Below, piece after piece: positions 3,561 through 23,453 of a DNA stretch of 24,009 bases. The translations under genes and the position numbers were made by a program. The notes below the pieces were generated by a model, which saw nothing but the letters and a program-made list of their open reading frames with translations, did no database searches and had not been told where the DNA came from. This stretch comes from a virus: the IMG/VR virus record IMGVR_UViG_3300022744_000097, positions 1 through 24,009 of that record; one strand, given 5' to 3'. Every line of letters begins with the position of its first letter. The first letter of the stretch is position 1.

Positions 3561-3575
3561 GTGTCATAGTGTAAT
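3561..3575 (+). promoter_or_regulatory. recurrent promoter/operator-like element, copy 1
   Basis: GTGTCATAGTGTAAT lies 22 bases before the LigA-related start. Identical or one-base-different copies occur at 21906-21920 and 23439-23453 at almost the same distance from the next gene. TAGTGT could act as a -10 box, although the -35 region here is poor. It is either a weak or activated promoter or a regulator site. Confidence 0.5.
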
Positions 3576-16259: not shown

Positions 16260-16472
16260 CTATTTAGACCAAACGTCGTTAGATTCATCAACAACCCTTA
16301 CTAGGTCTAACCCGCATGGAAGTAAGTCGCTGTATCGCCCCGTGTCATAGAACTGATCTACCCTACCACCCTCGTCCTCGCACAACATCATCCCCGTCAC
16401 GCTTCGAGCCTTCACAGTGTATCTCGTCCCGCTCGCATTAACAGCAACGTCACCAATGCGTAATTTTAACAT
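16260..16472 (-). CDS. small hypothetical protein, 70 aa
   Basis: ATG at 16472 follows TAGGAGATACATC. The product begins MLKLRIGDVAVNASGTRYTV and appears beta-rich, like a small SH3-type fold, with GGRVDQFYDTGRYSDLL in the middle. It faintly recalls the G-x-x-Y / GRY pattern of the rightward paralogue array at 21.9-23.2 kb, but similarity is too weak to claim homology. The stop abuts the DnaA-box cluster. Confidence 0.6.
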   Translation of the reverse strand: MLKLRIGDVAVNASGTRYTVKARSVTGMMLCEDEGGRVDQFYDTGRYSDLLPCGLDLVRVVDESNDVWSK

Positions 16473-17454: not shown

Positions 17455-18855
17455 ATGGTAAACTTGGTAGATCATTCAATAAAATACAGCCAGTATAACG
17501 TAGCACTTCAGTTCTCAAAAGTTTTCACATGCAAGTATTGTAAAGTGATGGACAAATGGTATTTGTGGACTAAATCAAAAGATCATGGCGGAATTCAGTG
17601 GATTGAAGACCCAAAGGATATTGTTGTAACAGAGTTCAGGGAGTTCCTGACAACGATATCACGAAAGGCATCGAGAGACATTGATTTAACGCCATCAAAG
17701 CAAGTTTCGACGCAGATTCTAATAGAGTCGAGCGCGTACATTAAGGGCGCATTAAGTGAACTCAAAACAATAAAAAGCGTATCAACTTGCCCCGTTGAAT
17801 GGGATTCAAACTTATGGGAGCTAAACACACCGAAAGGCATAGTAGACCTAACCACTGGATTCCTTAGAGAGAGAACGAAGGATGACTTGGGGTTGCTTTA
17901 TACTTTAGTTTCTCCATTAAACGAGCCGCCCGTAAAATGGCTAGAGTTTCTAAATCAAGCATGTAACGGCGATGCTGAAATGATCGGATTCTTAAAGCGA
18001 ATAGCTGGGTTTGCTTTGACGGGTATAACAACACCTCACTCCTTATTTTTCCTTCACGGCTGCGGGGGTAACGGCAAGGGTACATTTATCCTAGCTATCC
18101 AGACAATACTTAATAGCTATGCTTGCTCTGTAAAACCACGAATGTTTATCGAGACACAGCAGGAAACTCATTTATCTGAATATGCCGTTTTAATGTCAAA
18201 AAGGCTTATCTTGTGCGAAGAGATAAAGCCAGACGCTAGATGGGATAAGGAAAAGATGAATTCTATAACTGGAGGCAATAACATAACAGCAAACTTTATG
18301 CGCCAAGATTATTTTACTTTCAGACCAAGATTTAAGGTACTATTGGCAGCCAATGACAAACCAGAGTTTAAGAATCCAGACAATTCAGTTGTTCGTCGAC
18401 TGCATTTAATACCTTTTAATCATACCCCAAAAAAGGAAAATCACAATCTTGAGCGGCAATTAGAAGCTGAATACCCAAAGATATTGAGCTGGATGATTGA
18501 AGGGTGCCTTGAGTTTCAGGAGGTTGGATTAAATCCACCCGATTGGATATCTCAGGCAACGAAACAGTATATTGCTGACGAAGATCAGATACAGCAATGG
18601 ATTGATTCAAGAACAAAGTCCGTCGGTAATGATGGCGGCGGGCAGTCTTCTAGGATGTACGAAAGCTGGAAGATGTTTTGTAAAGAGTCTGGAATTGAAA
18701 GCGGGAGTCAAATATCATTTAGCAAGAAAATGTTCAAAAAGGGCTTTAAAGTAAAAAACACGAGTAACTTCAAAAGATGGATAGGAATAGACTTGACCGA
18801 TGGAGAAATGGACAAGATTTATGAGCTAGAGAGAAAACAAAGCCGAGGATTTTAA
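17455..18855 (+). CDS. D5-type SF3 replicative helicase
   Basis: A 466-residue protein with an N-terminal CKYC pair, a D5_N-like region and an SF3 AAA+ helicase domain. Walker A is HGCGGNGKGTF (about residues 201-211), Walker B is LILCEEI (251-257), and a sensor-1-like motif KVLLAANDKPEF lies at 294-305, followed by VVRRLHLIPF. Such proteins unwind DNA at phage and plasmid origins. No archaeo-eukaryotic primase or TOPRIM motif is visible, so it appears to be a helicase without its own primase. AGGTGG precedes the ATG, and a perfect promoter with an operator-like dyad lies upstream. It begins the rightward replication transcript next to the origin-like region. Confidence 0.85.
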   Translation: MVNLVDHSIKYSQYNVALQFSKVFTCKYCKVMDKWYLWTKSKDHGGIQWIEDPKDIVVTEFREFLTTISRKASRDIDLTPSKQVSTQILIESSAYIKGALSELKTIKSVSTCPVEWDSNLWELNTPKGIVDLTTGFLRERTKDDLGLLYTLVSPLNEPPVKWLEFLNQACNGDAEMIGFLKRIAGFALTGITTPHSLFFLHGCGGNGKGTFILAIQTILNSYACSVKPRMFIETQQETHLSEYAVLMSKRLILCEEIKPDARWDKEKMNSITGGNNITANFMRQDYFTFRPRFKVLLAANDKPEFKNPDNSVVRRLHLIPFNHTPKKENHNLERQLEAEYPKILSWMIEGCLEFQEVGLNPPDWISQATKQYIADEDQIQQWIDSRTKSVGNDGGGQSSRMYESWKMFCKESGIESGSQISFSKKMFKKGFKVKNTSNFKRWIGIDLTDGEMDKIYELERKQSRGF

Positions 18856-18857
18856 TT

Positions 18858-20381
18858 ATGCTTAGAGATTACCAGAAAAAAGCCATTGAAGATATTAGAA
18901 ATGCAATGAAATCAGGCGCAAGAAAGGTCGTATTTGTACTACCTACAGGCGGAGGCAAAAGTAAGGTCATATCTGAAATAGTTAAATCGGCATACGATAA
19001 AGGTTTTATTATATGGGTAATAGCTCACAGGTACAGGCTACTTATTCAGCTTGATGAGGCAATAGGAAGCAATGACTGTTCTTTTATTAAATCAGGTCTT
19101 AAATCTAACAGGGACTCAAAAGTACAGTTGTGCGGAATACAAACGCTGCACAACAGACATGAGTCTTATCCCGCTCCAGATTTAATCTGCATCGACGAAA
19201 CTCACCGCGCGTGTGCGAAGCAATACAAAGACGTTATTGATGCATATCCCAAAGCTAGAGTGATAGGATTTACTGCTACGCCAGAACGCACTGATGGGAG
19301 AGGGCTTGGAGAGATATTTGACGCTATGGTTACAAGTGTTGGTACGGGCTGGTTAATAGAAAATAAATACCTGTCTGCGTATCGATACTTCAGCCATCGT
19401 AATCAATTAGATATCTCTGGCGTAAAAAAGAACGGAAATGATTACGATAAAGTTGAATTAAGCGAGGCTGTTGCTCGGTCTTCAATAATCGGGGACGCTG
19501 TTGAGCATTACAGAGAAAAAGCGCATAACTTGCCTGCCGTATGCTTTTGTGATAGCGTTAAGAATTCAGAAAGCACTAGAGACAGGTTTATTGATGCGGG
19601 ATATAACGCCATATCTATATCAGCAGACACGCCAATACAGCAGCAGGATGACGCTCTTCTCGGTCTCGCCGACGGCAGGTATCACGTTGTTTGCTCTTGC
19701 GATCTGATTAGCGAGGGCGTTGATGTTCCCTTGTGTGCTGTTGCTATATTGCTCAGAAAAACCATGAGCAAGATTATTTATCTTCAACAGGTAGGAAGAG
19801 TGCTAAGAAAGCATGATGATAAGCCTAACGCGATTATATTAGATCACGTCGGCAATTGGGACACACACGGATTCCCGTGCGACGAAAGGGAGTGGAGCTT
19901 AGAAGGAAAGAAAAAGAATTTATGCGAGAAAGGAGCAACTTCAAAGATGTGTGAAAAATGCTATGAAAGAATAGCATTAGGAGAAATCCCTTCCTGTGGA
20001 TATGAAGAAGAAGAGTGCTGGATATTGTCAGAAAGAGCCAAAAAAGAGAGTGACGAGAAGGCAGCTTTTGAAGCTGGAAAGCTTGAAGAACTAAATCCTA
20101 AGGAGTGTAGAAAAAAGCCAGAAACACCAAGAGAAAAATGGCATGAGGTTTATCACGCCAAAAACTTGGAAGAACTTAAAGCCATTGAAAAAGAAAGGGG
20201 ATATCGTCGAGGATGGGCAGCAAGAAAGGAAAGACAAAGGAAAATGCTGATTGAAAAAAACGATGAATTAATGGCATGTAAAAGCAAAAGTGATGTGCTG
20301 AATGTCGCCAATAATTACGGGCTAGATGAGTATTCATGTTTGAAAAGATTCAAAGATAACGGCGGAATTTTAAAGGATTAA
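18858..20381 (+). CDS. SF2 DExH-box helicase
   Basis: A 507-residue SF2 helicase starting two bases after the D5 gene. Motif I is PTGGGKS (about 29-35), motif II DETH (113-116), motif III FTATPER (138-144), motif V ISEGVDVP (284-291) and motif VI QQVGRVLR (310-317). It resembles the short phage DEAD/DEAH helicases of the SSL2/RecQ-like group that assist replication or recombination. C-terminal to the motor are four cysteines (C356, C365, C368, C380) that could bind zinc, and then a long charged helical tail (about 390-490). Both helicase genes form one operon. Its exact task is unknown. Confidence 0.85.
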   Translation: MLRDYQKKAIEDIRNAMKSGARKVVFVLPTGGGKSKVISEIVKSAYDKGFIIWVIAHRYRLLIQLDEAIGSNDCSFIKSGLKSNRDSKVQLCGIQTLHNRHESYPAPDLICIDETHRACAKQYKDVIDAYPKARVIGFTATPERTDGRGLGEIFDAMVTSVGTGWLIENKYLSAYRYFSHRNQLDISGVKKNGNDYDKVELSEAVARSSIIGDAVEHYREKAHNLPAVCFCDSVKNSESTRDRFIDAGYNAISISADTPIQQQDDALLGLADGRYHVVCSCDLISEGVDVPLCAVAILLRKTMSKIIYLQQVGRVLRKHDDKPNAIILDHVGNWDTHGFPCDEREWSLEGKKKNLCEKGATSKMCEKCYERIALGEIPSCGYEEEECWILSERAKKESDEKAAFEAGKLEELNPKECRKKPETPREKWHEVYHAKNLEELKAIEKERGYRRGWAARKERQRKMLIEKNDELMACKSKSDVLNVANNYGLDEYSCLKRFKDNGGILKD

Positions 20382-20383
20382 AA

Positions 20384-21049
20384 ATGAAGATTTACATAGA
20401 AAAGATTAGATCATTAAATGAATTAACAGTAACCCCTCAGGATGTTGATTTATATAAAGGAGAAAGATATATTCTTAATGATGGAACTGTGACAGGCAGA
20501 TTGTTTAAGGGGTTTTTGGATGGGGTGCATTTTTACAACGATCCTTCGTTGAAGAGTATTTTTACAGACAAAGGCGTTGAGTTAAATTACAAGCATAATT
20601 TAACGGGAAGGTATATTTTTGGATGTTATGAATACAATGATACAGATTGTATTAGCGAAATAAAAGTAACAGAGTTTCGTGATTTTCTTAAATACGCTGG
20701 CTTAAAAGAAAAAAAGTTTTGTAAATCATTTGGCATAAATTGCCTATGTGATCTTACAAACGATCAGCTCGATGAGATATTGTCAACTACCGATTTAACG
20801 GCTTCCTTCAGCAAGACACGAATGACCTCGCGCGAGAATGTTGGCAGCCGCGTTTATATCGCGGTCGTGCGTAGCTCCACAAGTGCTACATACCCACATT
20901 CTCTTATTCAGACCTGTAAAACCTTTCGGGCTGCTGTCGGGTATTACGCCGCAACTAGAACAGGTCTGGGTTGTGTACTTCTCGTTAACTTCTTCAAACC
21001 ATACCGACGCGCTATCGCATTTATATCGAAGCATGGTTCTGAACATTGA
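20384..21049 (+). pseudogene. phage gene truncated by tnpB insertion; chimeric C-terminus
   Basis: ATG at 20384 with AAAGGA upstream, two bases after the SF2 helicase stop, so it belongs to the same operon. The first about 133 residues (MKIYIEKIRSLNELTV to NDQLDEIL) look like native phage protein and carry no recognised domain. From about 20782 the frame continues antisense to tnpB, adding about 88 residues of implausible composition up to 21049. The gene is therefore most likely interrupted, the original C-terminus being displaced to the right side of the element. If the left flank up to 20781 is joined to 21890, a stop codon follows after two codons, which would restore a 134-residue protein; this junction is a guess. 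Confidence 0.6.
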
Positions 21050-21832
21050 CCAACCAGCGTCTAGCACTGACTTAGCCATCTTGGTTTTAGCCAAGGCGGA
21101 AGAGTTAACATTTCCGACGAAAATAGCGGCGTTTTCTTTAACGAGCCTGCTACTTACTTTATGCAGAAAGTCTGAGCGTTTAGCCTTAATCTTGGCGTGT
21201 ATTGCCTTAACTCTCTGTTTCTTATTTGCGCGTTGCGCTGTGGCGAGCTGCTGTTCTTGGTTGCGGTAGAAGTGTTGTGCATCGATTTTCTCGCCGTTTG
21301 ATAGTACAGCAAAGTCTTTAAGACCAAGATCAATGCCGACAGACGCAGTCCCTTCTGATGCTACTTTTTCGGTCTCTACGCAGATGTTAGCGTACCACCT
21401 GCCTCGTGAGTCCTGCGCGAAGTTACCCGAACGAAGCTCGTACTTAGATAGACCGTAAGAGTCCCATATCTTGAAGTGGTGACCAGCGTAGCGAAGTTGA
21501 CCGTTAATGCATTTGATGCACTGAGCAGAGAAAGGAATCCAGCCTAGCGATCTTTTAGAACGCCAAGAAAGCTTATTCTTTTTAAATTGCTTGCGACGAA
21601 TTGCGTATTCTTGACCGACTATCTGAATAGTTTTTGACCCAATCAACGTCCCTTCTTTTGAAGTTCCTGCTGTATATTTTTGCAGATCGAACCCGCTTAG
21701 AAATTTCCCGTGACGCTTCAGATATCTGTAGCTTAGATCATTGCAGTAGTTCCAAACCATGTTAACTTCACGCGCCATGGCACACAGAACCTTAGCGTGC
21801 TTGTCCTTGATTCGTATATGAAGTGTCTTCAT
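20795..21832 (-). CDS. tnpB: TnpB-family RNA-guided nuclease (RuvC-II Glu replaced)
   Basis: 345 residues from the ATG at 21832 (AAGGAATACC upstream); a longer frame to 21883 has no ribosome binding site. TnpB proteins are RNA-guided DNA endonucleases ancestral to Cas12. RuvC-I is SVGIDLGLKDFA (D168). At the RuvC-II position, where EDL is usual, the sequence is AAIFVGNVNSS, so the catalytic Glu is Gly240. The zinc finger is CSSC (291-294) and CSTC (315-318), and RuvC-III is HDRDINAAANIL (D325). Glu280, Glu281 or Glu284 in WFEEVNE could substitute, since rearranged RuvC-II sites are known in some TnpB clades. The gene is otherwise complete. Confidence 0.88.
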   Translation of the reverse strand: MKTLHIRIKDKHAKVLCAMAREVNMVWNYCNDLSYRYLKRHGKFLSGFDLQKYTAGTSKEGTLIGSKTIQIVGQEYAIRRKQFKKNKLSWRSKRSLGWIPFSAQCIKCINGQLRYAGHHFKIWDSYGLSKYELRSGNFAQDSRGRWYANICVETEKVASEGTASVGIDLGLKDFAVLSNGEKIDAQHFYRNQEQQLATAQRANKKQRVKAIHAKIKAKRSDFLHKVSSRLVKENAAIFVGNVNSSALAKTKMAKSVLDAGWSMFRTMLRYKCDSASVWFEEVNEKYTTQTCSSCGVIPDSSPKGFTGLNKRMWVCSTCGATHDRDINAAANILARGHSCLAEGSR

Positions 21833-21854
21833 GGTATTCCTTAGACGAGCTATC

Positions 21855-21883
21855 ATTATATCATAACTAAAATTATTTAACAA
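21855..21883 (-). promoter_or_regulatory. tnpB promoter
   Basis: On the minus strand TTGTTA (21883-21878), a 17-base spacer and TATAAT (21860-21855) lie 22 bases before the tnpB start, so the gene has its own transcription against the phage operon. Confidence 0.6.
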
Positions 21884-21887
21884 CTGC

Positions 21888-21920
21888 TTGACGTAGTGCC
21901 ACGGCGTGTCATAGTGTAAT
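21888..21920 (+). promoter_or_regulatory. recurrent promoter element, copy 2
   Basis: TTGACG (21888-21893), an 18-base spacer and TAGTGT (21912-21917), within GTGTCATAGTGTAAT (21906-21920). It lies 20 bases before the first gene of the paralogue array. Copy 3 has the same 18-base geometry. Confidence 0.55.
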
Positions 21921-21940: not shown

Positions 21941-22126
21941 ATGGAACTAAAAGACGGACATAAATATATAGACAGGAGAGGGGCAGTTCACACCGTTTAC
22001 AGAAGGATTGGAATAATATCATCTCATCCGTTCGAGAATGAAACAAAAACACTCAAATGGGCTAGAAGTGGGCGATATGCTCACTCTGAAGATCATCCGA
22101 ATGATTTGGTTGGAGAGGCATCATGA
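21941..22126 (+). CDS. tandem-array small protein, copy 1 (61 aa)
   Basis: ATG at 21941 follows AAGGAGACGCATC. The product reads MELKDGHKYIDRRGAVHTV at the start and GRYAHSEDHPNDLVGE near the end. Four other proteins in this array share the N-terminal G-x-x-Y-x-x-R-x-G and C-terminal G-x-Y/F...DHPNDLV pattern. Small proteins of this pattern are widespread in phages and have no assigned function; I expect a small beta-barrel. It overlaps the next gene by ATGA. Confidence 0.7.
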   Translation: MELKDGHKYIDRRGAVHTVYRRIGIISSHPFENETKTLKWARSGRYAHSEDHPNDLVGEAS

Positions 22127-22305
22127 AACTGGAACACGGCAAAACATACAAGGACAGGACGGGCAGGGAGTGGATTGTTACGTACAATCCAGAACGATTT
22201 TTGTATAAGTTTGAGTGTGGTCGTCGAATGAGCTGGACTGAAGAAGGAAAGTTTATTCATCACGAAGACCACGATTCTGCGTTTGATTTAGTGGAGGCTG
22301 TATGA
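22123..22305 (+). CDS. tandem-array small protein, copy 2 (60 aa)
   Basis: Starts in the ATGA overlap. Begins MKLEHGKTYKDRTGREWIV and ends HHEDHDSAFDLVEAV. The first nine codons are nearly identical at the DNA level to copy 4 (22791), indicating a recent duplication. The C-terminal motif carries a three-residue insertion relative to DHPNDLV. Confidence 0.7.
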   Translation: MKLEHGKTYKDRTGREWIVTYNPERFLYKFECGRRMSWTEEGKFIHHEDHDSAFDLVEAV

Positions 22306-22583
22306 GCATCATATCGGACATGCTGGAATATAACGCTGTTATCCTGAAAAACAGGCATAAAATGGTTGCTGCGCTACGAAAGGAGATAGAAGATGAGATA
22401 GAAGACGGCTACATGACGCTTGAAGACTTCCATTCTTTACTTGAGCCAACAAATTTGGTATCATTACGCCAAAGATTATTTAGACGAAGAAAGTTAGGGT
22501 TAGATTGCGTAGGGGGGTATTCAATCAGTTTTTACAAGAAGAAGCACAGTTATTTTATCAAAATCACAGGGAGAACGAAATGA
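22302..22583 (+). CDS. second-family small protein, copy 1 (93 aa)
   Basis: ATGA overlap with the previous gene. The protein has an N-terminal helix (MSIISDMLEYN), an acidic helix (LRKEIEDEIEDGYMTLEDF), and a C-terminal beta part (YSISFYKKKHSYFIKI). It aligns by eye with the protein at 23156-23428: both start MSI, share GY-(M/I)-T/S-x-x-(D/E)F, and end with a short K/Y-rich beta segment. No known family; helix-turn-helix-like spacing is possible. Confidence 0.6.
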   Translation: MSIISDMLEYNAVILKNRHKMVAALRKEIEDEIEDGYMTLEDFHSLLEPTNLVSLRQRLFRRRKLGLDCVGGYSISFYKKKHSYFIKITGRTK

Positions 22584-22789
22584 AAAAAGATATAAAGGAA
22601 GGACAGCGTTATATAAGAAGAAATGGAAGCATAACAAGCAAACTAATTTTTAATAAATGCGAATTAACGAAAAATGAGTTTCCATTTATATGCAGGTGTT
22701 TTTTTACATACAGATCGAACGGCAGTCACTCACTAGATGAGAGAGACATTTCTCCTCTTGATTTAGTAAAAAGATATAAAGGAAAATAA
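22580..22789 (+). CDS. tandem-array small protein, copy 3 (69 aa)
   Basis: Starts at 22580 in an ATGA overlap, AGGGAG eight bases upstream. Begins MKKDIKEGQRYIRRNGSIT and ends SPLDLVKRYKGK. It is the most divergent member: the central region has FPFICRCFFTY instead of the usual aromatic strand, but the Y-I-x-R-x-G and DLV elements remain. It is more AT-rich than its neighbours. Confidence 0.65.
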   Translation: MKKDIKEGQRYIRRNGSITSKLIFNKCELTKNEFPFICRCFFTYRSNGSHSLDERDISPLDLVKRYKGK

Positions 22790-22790
22790 A

Positions 22791-23000
22791 ATGAAACTAG
22801 AACACGGAAAACGTTATATCACGCGGGGCGGATGGATTACAGGCGTTGTGACTCATCACCCAAATTATATCAATTACCCGTTCCTTGTCGAGGCATGTGA
22901 CTACCCGTACAGCGTCACCGCTGAGGGGTTCTATTCGTTCGATAGGCATCCTAATAACCTTGATCTTTTGGCAGAGTACAATGATACTCAAACAGGGTAA
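22791..23000 (+). CDS. tandem-array small protein, copy 4 (69 aa)
   Basis: ATG at 22791 one base after the previous stop, with AAAGGA upstream. Begins MKLEHGKRYITRGGWITGV and has NYPFLVEAC, GFYSFDRHPNNLDLL near the end. Closest to copy 2 at the N-terminus and to copy 5 in KRYITR. It overlaps copy 5 by 20 bases. Confidence 0.7.
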   Translation: MKLEHGKRYITRGGWITGVVTHHPNYINYPFLVEACDYPYSVTAEGFYSFDRHPNNLDLLAEYNDTQTG

Positions 23001-23247
23001 GCGGTACATAACCCGTTCTTTCGATATAACCCAGCCTCTGGAACGCATCGGAGACGGGTTATACTGCTACGATACGGGCATGTATCGCGTGACGCAGCAC
23101 GGTCGCTATCATCCGTCATGCGATCATCCGAATGATTTAATCAAGGAGTACGGCTATGAGTATCCTCGCGCAACTGTTAAGCCAGTACACGCCAAAAATG
23201 GACGTGAAAAAAAGTTCAGCTGGAAGAAAGAAAAAGTATTACTATAA
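22981..23247 (+). CDS. tandem-array small protein, copy 5 with extended tail (88 aa)
   Basis: ATG at 22981 inside the end of copy 4. Begins MILKQGKRYITRSFDITQP and has GRYHPSCDHPNDLIKEYGYEY at about residues 41-61. In the other copies a stop follows soon after this motif; here the frame stays open for about 27 more codons and overlaps the next gene (23156) by 92 bases. The extra tail is basic (GREKKFSWKKEKVLL) and may be non-functional read-on, or a real extension. Confidence 0.65.
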   Translation: MILKQGKRYITRSFDITQPLERIGDGLYCYDTGMYRVTQHGRYHPSCDHPNDLIKEYGYEYPRATVKPVHAKNGREKKFSWKKEKVLL

Positions 23248-23428
23248 AAAGAAGAAATTTAAGGAAGGGTATATCAGTACATGGGAGTTTTATTGCAAAT
23301 TTGATCTTGGGATACAGTACAATACCTTTTGTGAGTATCTAAGGGTAAATCTTGGGAGCGGTTCTGTCACGATTAACGGCATTGAAATAAAATATTTCAA
23401 AGATACTAGATATCAGCTGCTTGCATAG
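23156..23428 (+). CDS. second-family small protein, copy 2 (90 aa)
   Basis: ATG at 23156 with a perfect AAGGAG seven bases upstream, inside the tail of copy 5. The protein starts MSILAQLLSQYTPKM, has a very basic segment (GRKKKYYYKKKKFKEGYIS), then a region resembling the protein at 22302. Lysine-rich sequence suggests nucleic-acid binding. Its placement after a group of array genes mirrors 22302 and supports a segmental duplication. Confidence 0.6.
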   Translation: MSILAQLLSQYTPKMDVKKSSAGRKKKYYYKKKKFKEGYISTWEFYCKFDLGIQYNTFCEYLRVNLGSGSVTINGIEIKYFKDTRYQLLA

Positions 23429-23453
23429 TGCATTACATGTGTCATAGTGTAAA
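23421..23453 (+). promoter_or_regulatory. recurrent promoter element, copy 3
   Basis: TTGCAT (23421-23426), an 18-base spacer and TAGTGT (23445-23450) within GTGTCATAGTGTAAA (23439-23453), 19 bases before the next gene. A second ATAGTGC lies at 23425-23431, giving two heptamers 20 bases (about two helical turns) apart. Confidence 0.55.

Follow-up and report, generated by a model that had tools for sequence, protein, structure and literature searches.

The closest described relatives of the genes analysed here belong to an unnamed phage protein family, phrog_23578 of the PHROG collection, which matches 29 of the 53 members that we scanned (best E 1.8e-39), and where a position is given, the matched stretch is the domain-bearing one. 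The five copies described below have diverged too far for a direct match to phrog_23578 (none at E up to 1) and are linked to it via other members only. Among individual relatives, gp25 of EBPR siphovirus 2 contains one copy of the domain, as do the genes here, but fused to a dATP/dGTP diphosphohydrolase. In gp084 of Agrobacterium phage 7-7-1, one copy is fused to a DUF4406 nucleoside 2-deoxyribosyltransferase, and p074 of Rhizobium phage 16-3 combines one copy with two GDRV-type segments and a C-terminal tail.

Organisation of the array

The analysed stretch of 24,009 bases (the window) is a complete virus record, which may itself cover only part of the virus. The terminase shares 62% identity with that of Burkholderia phage Magia, and a close relative of the right-hand 10 kb was not found among 50,697 phage records. 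The initial annotation had placed five small genes, here called c1 to c5, at the start positions listed in Table 1, and all five are present there. Their starts are accompanied either by a ribosome-site-like sequence or by a short overlap (4-20 nt) with the adjoining gene, and c2 has ATGA overlaps both with c1 and with the next gene downstream. Two unrelated small genes are interleaved with the copies; we considered these as a duplicated pair and rejected this, their mutual likeness not being significant. The last 30 residues of c5 lie outside the domain, and c5 overlaps the next gene by 92 nt (23156-23247) in different frames, far more than any other genes of the array overlap. The stop codon of c5 may have been lost.

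The promoter-like site ahead of c1 is, as predicted from its sequence, likely the promoter of the array. It contains the 14-mer GTGTCATAGTGTAA, of which the window has three exact occurrences, all on the plus strand (3561-3574, 21906-21919 and 23439-23452). No other 14-mer is present three times, and GTGTCATAGTGTAA at every site directly precedes an AAGGAG ribosome site and a start codon; it is probably a common phage promoter or operator. The promoter-like site and the positions of GTGTCATAGTGTAA together suggest that c1 through the gene ending at 23428 probably form one transcript, with the next one starting near 23439.

Table 1. Features of the window in and around the array
Feature	Position	Strand	Remarks	Match
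D5-type primase/helicase	17455-18855		left of the array
Helicase	18858-20381		left of the array
Gene with diverged sixth copy	20384-21049	+	domain near the N-terminus (~20456-20662)	external profile E 0.0036; A2 2.9e-5
TnpB/IS605 OrfB-type transposon protein	20795-21883	-	between sixth copy and array	PF07282 E 2.8e-24; PF01385 E 8.5e-14
Promoter-like site	21888-21919	+	TTGACG-16-CATAGT, extended -10; ahead of c1; holds 14-mer GTGTCATAGTGTAA
Copy 1 (c1)	21941-22126	+	61 aa; stand-alone domain	external profile E 1.1e-7
Copy 2 (c2)	22123-22305	+	60 aa	external profile E 5.5e-10
Unrelated small gene	22302-22583	+	93 aa; interleaved in array	no family match
Copy 3 (c3)	22580-22789	+	69 aa; most diverged of the five	external profile E 1.5e-6
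Copy 4 (c4)	22791-23000	+	69 aa; nearest the family consensus	external profile E 5.5e-11
Copy 5 (c5)	22981-23247	+	88 aa; domain at 22981-23154	external profile E 2.3e-9
Unrelated small gene	23156-23428	+	90 aa; interleaved; starts within the c5 tail

Kinship of the five copies

The five genes had been described as a tandem multiplication of one family with variable centres, and the alignments support this. When scores were compared with chance using 500 shuffles per pair, nine of the ten pairwise alignments beat nearly all shuffles (all but 0 to 7 of 500), with z values of 3 to 12; in local alignment, z was 12.3 for both c1-c5 and c2-c4, and 9.5 for c3-c4. The sole pair at chance level was c2-c3 (z 0.3, 500 shuffles), and despite this c3 belongs in the family, because it is linked via c4, c1 and c5. 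We also searched all frames of the window with a profile built from 109 non-redundant domains, all from outside the window (the external profile). The copies c1 to c5 came out on top (E 5.5e-11 to 1.5e-6), the gene at 20384 was next, and noise followed. A small ORF on the minus strand (16260-16472), ending in GRYSDLLPCGLDLV, resembles the family end and was rejected as below threshold (external profile E 2.1).

The front motif proposed for the copies, GK-x-Y-x-x-R, is indeed common to them, but the second residue is not always lysine and the real form is G[KHQ]xYxxR. The end reads exactly DHPNDL in c1 and c5 only, whereas the other copies carry DHDSAFDL, RDISPLDL and RHPNNLDL. The general rule of the family is GxxYxxRxG ... 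aromatic-x3-4-G ... D[LI][VIL], in which G8 and Y11 are invariant across 67 alignment rows and G48 is present in 66 of the 67; in c5, phenylalanine replaces the second glycine of the conserved pattern.

Age of the copies

The initial annotation considered the amplification to be rapid and pointed to the nearly identical starts of c2 and c4. These two copies do have MKLEHGK in common, but their overall identity is only ~31%, and theirs is therefore not a recent duplication. Identities among c1 to c5 are about 23-40%, and those to members in unrelated phages reach 38-40%; since the copies are no closer to one another than to outside members, rapid amplification is unsupported. Likeness at the DNA level is limited to short stretches, for instance the GATCATCCGAATGATTT end common to c1 and c5. 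The tree of the family, built on few informative columns, is largely unresolved, and a single origin of c1 to c5 was neither demonstrated nor rejected (AU test, p-AU 0.78). Judged by their sequences, the five copies are old paralogues that were not recently expanded.

A diverged sixth copy

A sixth copy, absent from the earlier reading of five, is recognisable in the sequence upstream of them. Its domain (GERYILNDGTVTGRL...) beat 2000 of 2000 shuffles. The 3' part of the gene that contains it is antisense to the gene for the TnpB-type protein, and because the reading frame runs into the antisense of this TnpB/IS605 OrfB gene, the gene at 20384 seems to be interrupted and its present end is probably not the original one.

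The family in other phages

Beyond the window the family was found at no fewer than 134 loci, in which the domain stands by itself, is repeated in tandem or is fused to further domains. Members were gathered with degenerate DNA patterns and profile iteration, and the count is biased by these patterns. More than half of the loci returned by the first pattern contained an unrelated gene and were excluded from the family. This small gene, LAGKIYKxRGGGYTGPKTKAQKSMTKW..., is very similar throughout and is present in many virus contigs (loci L011-L018, L020, L022-L024, L029 and L033-L036). Among 104 non-redundant outside ORFs, read from stop to stop and thus with uncertain start sites, seven contain two copies of the domain and five are apparently stand-alone; the remainder have additional sequence, and in most ORFs such sequence flanks the domain on one side or both. 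As an add-on the domain is often N-terminal and sometimes C-terminal or in tandem. A second multi-copy phage has five matches within one record of 65 kb.

Fusion partners include a dATP/dGTP diphosphohydrolase (PF18909) in three proteins, a dCMP deaminase (PF00383), a DUF4406 nucleoside 2-deoxyribosyltransferase, DUF6378, HTH_39 and a ribosomal L12 C-terminal-like domain, and there is a weak match to the domain on a MazG-like protein of Agrobacterium phage 7-7-1 (E 0.0037). As most partners have no assigned function either, the link with nucleotides comes from a few proteins. In one further fusion (L032, 3149-3535) the domain is joined to a DHLPP...NPERxxAL hairpin (phrog_1761), and a tblastn search with the entire fused protein matched 317 phage records, mainly over the hairpin part. 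A resemblance of this partner to Acb2/Tad1, noted by eye, was dropped, as it had no Pfam or NCBIfam match and only designed proteins were found in the PDB.

Genes for a Sak4-like annealing protein, DNA polymerases, helicases, methyltransferases, exonucleases and a resolvase lie next to other members; terminase and head genes also adjoin them, and these neighbour frequencies carry no background rate. The gene p074 of Rhizobium phage 16-3 is located downstream of Pr, which is annotated as an early promoter, and close to a Sak4-like gene. The mean net charge of the family is -1.5 and the median pI 5.6; with such a mean charge, it has no general nucleic-acid-binding charge.

Single-copy tblastn searches against the 50,697 phage records gave no convincing match, whereas a consensus query returned gp25 of EBPR siphovirus 2 at E 0.1, which was confirmed afterwards by profile. 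We attributed the matches in Escherichia phage mio and MW202627 to chance, and likewise a GYF-domain match in the PDB (SMY2, E 1.5). A pattern scan of genome contigs contained zero true members. The family had been said to have no assigned role, which agrees with the absence of significant matches for c1 to c5 in Pfam, PADLOC and the PDB; c4 and c5 had no match in NCBIfam either, and a literature search on the family found nothing.

Predicted fold

AlphaFold models based on family alignments reached a pLDDT of 84.4 and a pTM of 0.69 for c4, and 93.3 and 0.78 for c3. Both models are small beta barrels with identical strand order, thus the check for differing folds revealed none in the two copies modelled. 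Their structural neighbours in the PDB are the same, namely PsaE, PHF19/PHF1 Tudor and other small barrels (Z 2-4), with YorP also among the neighbours of c4. The best structural match is weak (Z 3.8, rmsd 2.5 over 49 residues) and is to an integrative model, and Foldseek against the PDB gave nothing with E below 1 for c3 or c4. Against predicted viral structures, Foldseek returned uncharacterised proteins, for example from Brucella phage EF4, Sinorhizobium phage phiN3 and Burkholderia phage Mica. The copies c3 and c4 are thus confidently predicted to adopt one small beta barrel that is loosely SH3-like, a term used here as a class label and not as a relationship, given that no Z exceeds 3.8 and that the Foldseek E values stay above 1.

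Possible role of the array

The array is a real and fairly ordinary feature. We favour, with a probability of about 0.5, the reading that it consists of old paralogues of a ~60-residue, non-catalytic, SH3-like barrel domain that serves in binding and moves as a module between tailed phages. The five copies would be expressed early as one transcription unit. The conserved G-K-x-Y-x-x-R-x-G hairpin and the D-L-V strand would form the barrel, which would itself lack an active site and would act by holding a partner, whether another protein or a small ligand (for example a nucleotide), with the variable centre and loops determining the choice of partner. As stand-alone proteins, the copies in this virus could have a range of different binding partners, of host or phage origin, in the course of takeover and replication. 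Against this reading, the copies may be merely tolerated accessory genes that are in part decaying.

One alternative, related to the role suggested in the initial annotation, is an anti-defence set in which each protein binds and blocks a single immune protein or signal nucleotide of the host, and the array is kept since host defences differ. The copies are indeed small stand-alone paralogues with variable centres, and the presence of the domain on nucleotide-handling enzymes is compatible with the handling of signal nucleotides. Yet c1 to c5 match none of the defence-related models searched, no anti-defence gene is among the common neighbours listed for other members, the copies are old, and most relatives are portions of larger proteins. 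Moreover, the sole functional pointers, the fusion partners and neighbours, are genes of nucleotide metabolism and of DNA replication or recombination, and we consider this explanation unlikely. Those same fusions, several of them distinct and with dNTP-related enzymes, would suit a subunit or regulator of nucleotide metabolism, with the domain serving to sense or channel deoxynucleotides and the stand-alone copies working in trans on such enzymes. However, no gene of nucleotide metabolism was recognised adjoining this array, and many partners either have no assigned function or are other small repeat domains, which leaves this explanation about as doubtful as the previous one.

Lower in probability is a broader proposal, that the domain is a general phage module binding nucleotides or nucleotide-enzyme complexes. 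Enzymes would use it as a head for targeting or sensing, and arrays of stand-alone copies would counter the nucleotide-based immunity of the host as sponges or blockers. A barrel of the KOW/Tudor type that binds nucleic acid or tunes transcription also appears quite improbable: the fold class contains nucleic-acid and histone readers, relatives are situated in replication and recombination regions, and c3 is positively charged (+5), but the family is slightly acidic on average. Finally, non-adaptive accretion, whereby copies arrive and then decay with little function, is a poor candidate, for although the gene with the sixth copy is apparently broken by a transposon and c5 continues into the next gene, the five frames are intact with ribosome sites in most, core residues are conserved despite deep divergence, and a recurrent promoter-like element precedes the array.

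Comparison with known systems

The domain, widespread in tailed phages, has neither a Pfam entry nor a name and is attached to several enzymes of deoxynucleotide metabolism. With its boundaries, fold class and partners defined, many 'hypothetical proteins' become one testable family, and if binding of nucleotides or host proteins is true, arrays like this one would show how a single scaffold can give a phage several specificities. Of the proteins with known structures, the PHF19/PHF1 Tudor domains, PsaE and Bacillus subtilis YorP are similar to the barrels of the window in size and strand arrangement, at a Z of about 2-3.3 only and without sequence similarity. The copies in the window stand alone, whereas most collected members of the phrog_23578-like family are parts of longer proteins. 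The array itself is new and diverged, and its kind, a widespread phage domain, is known but unnamed.
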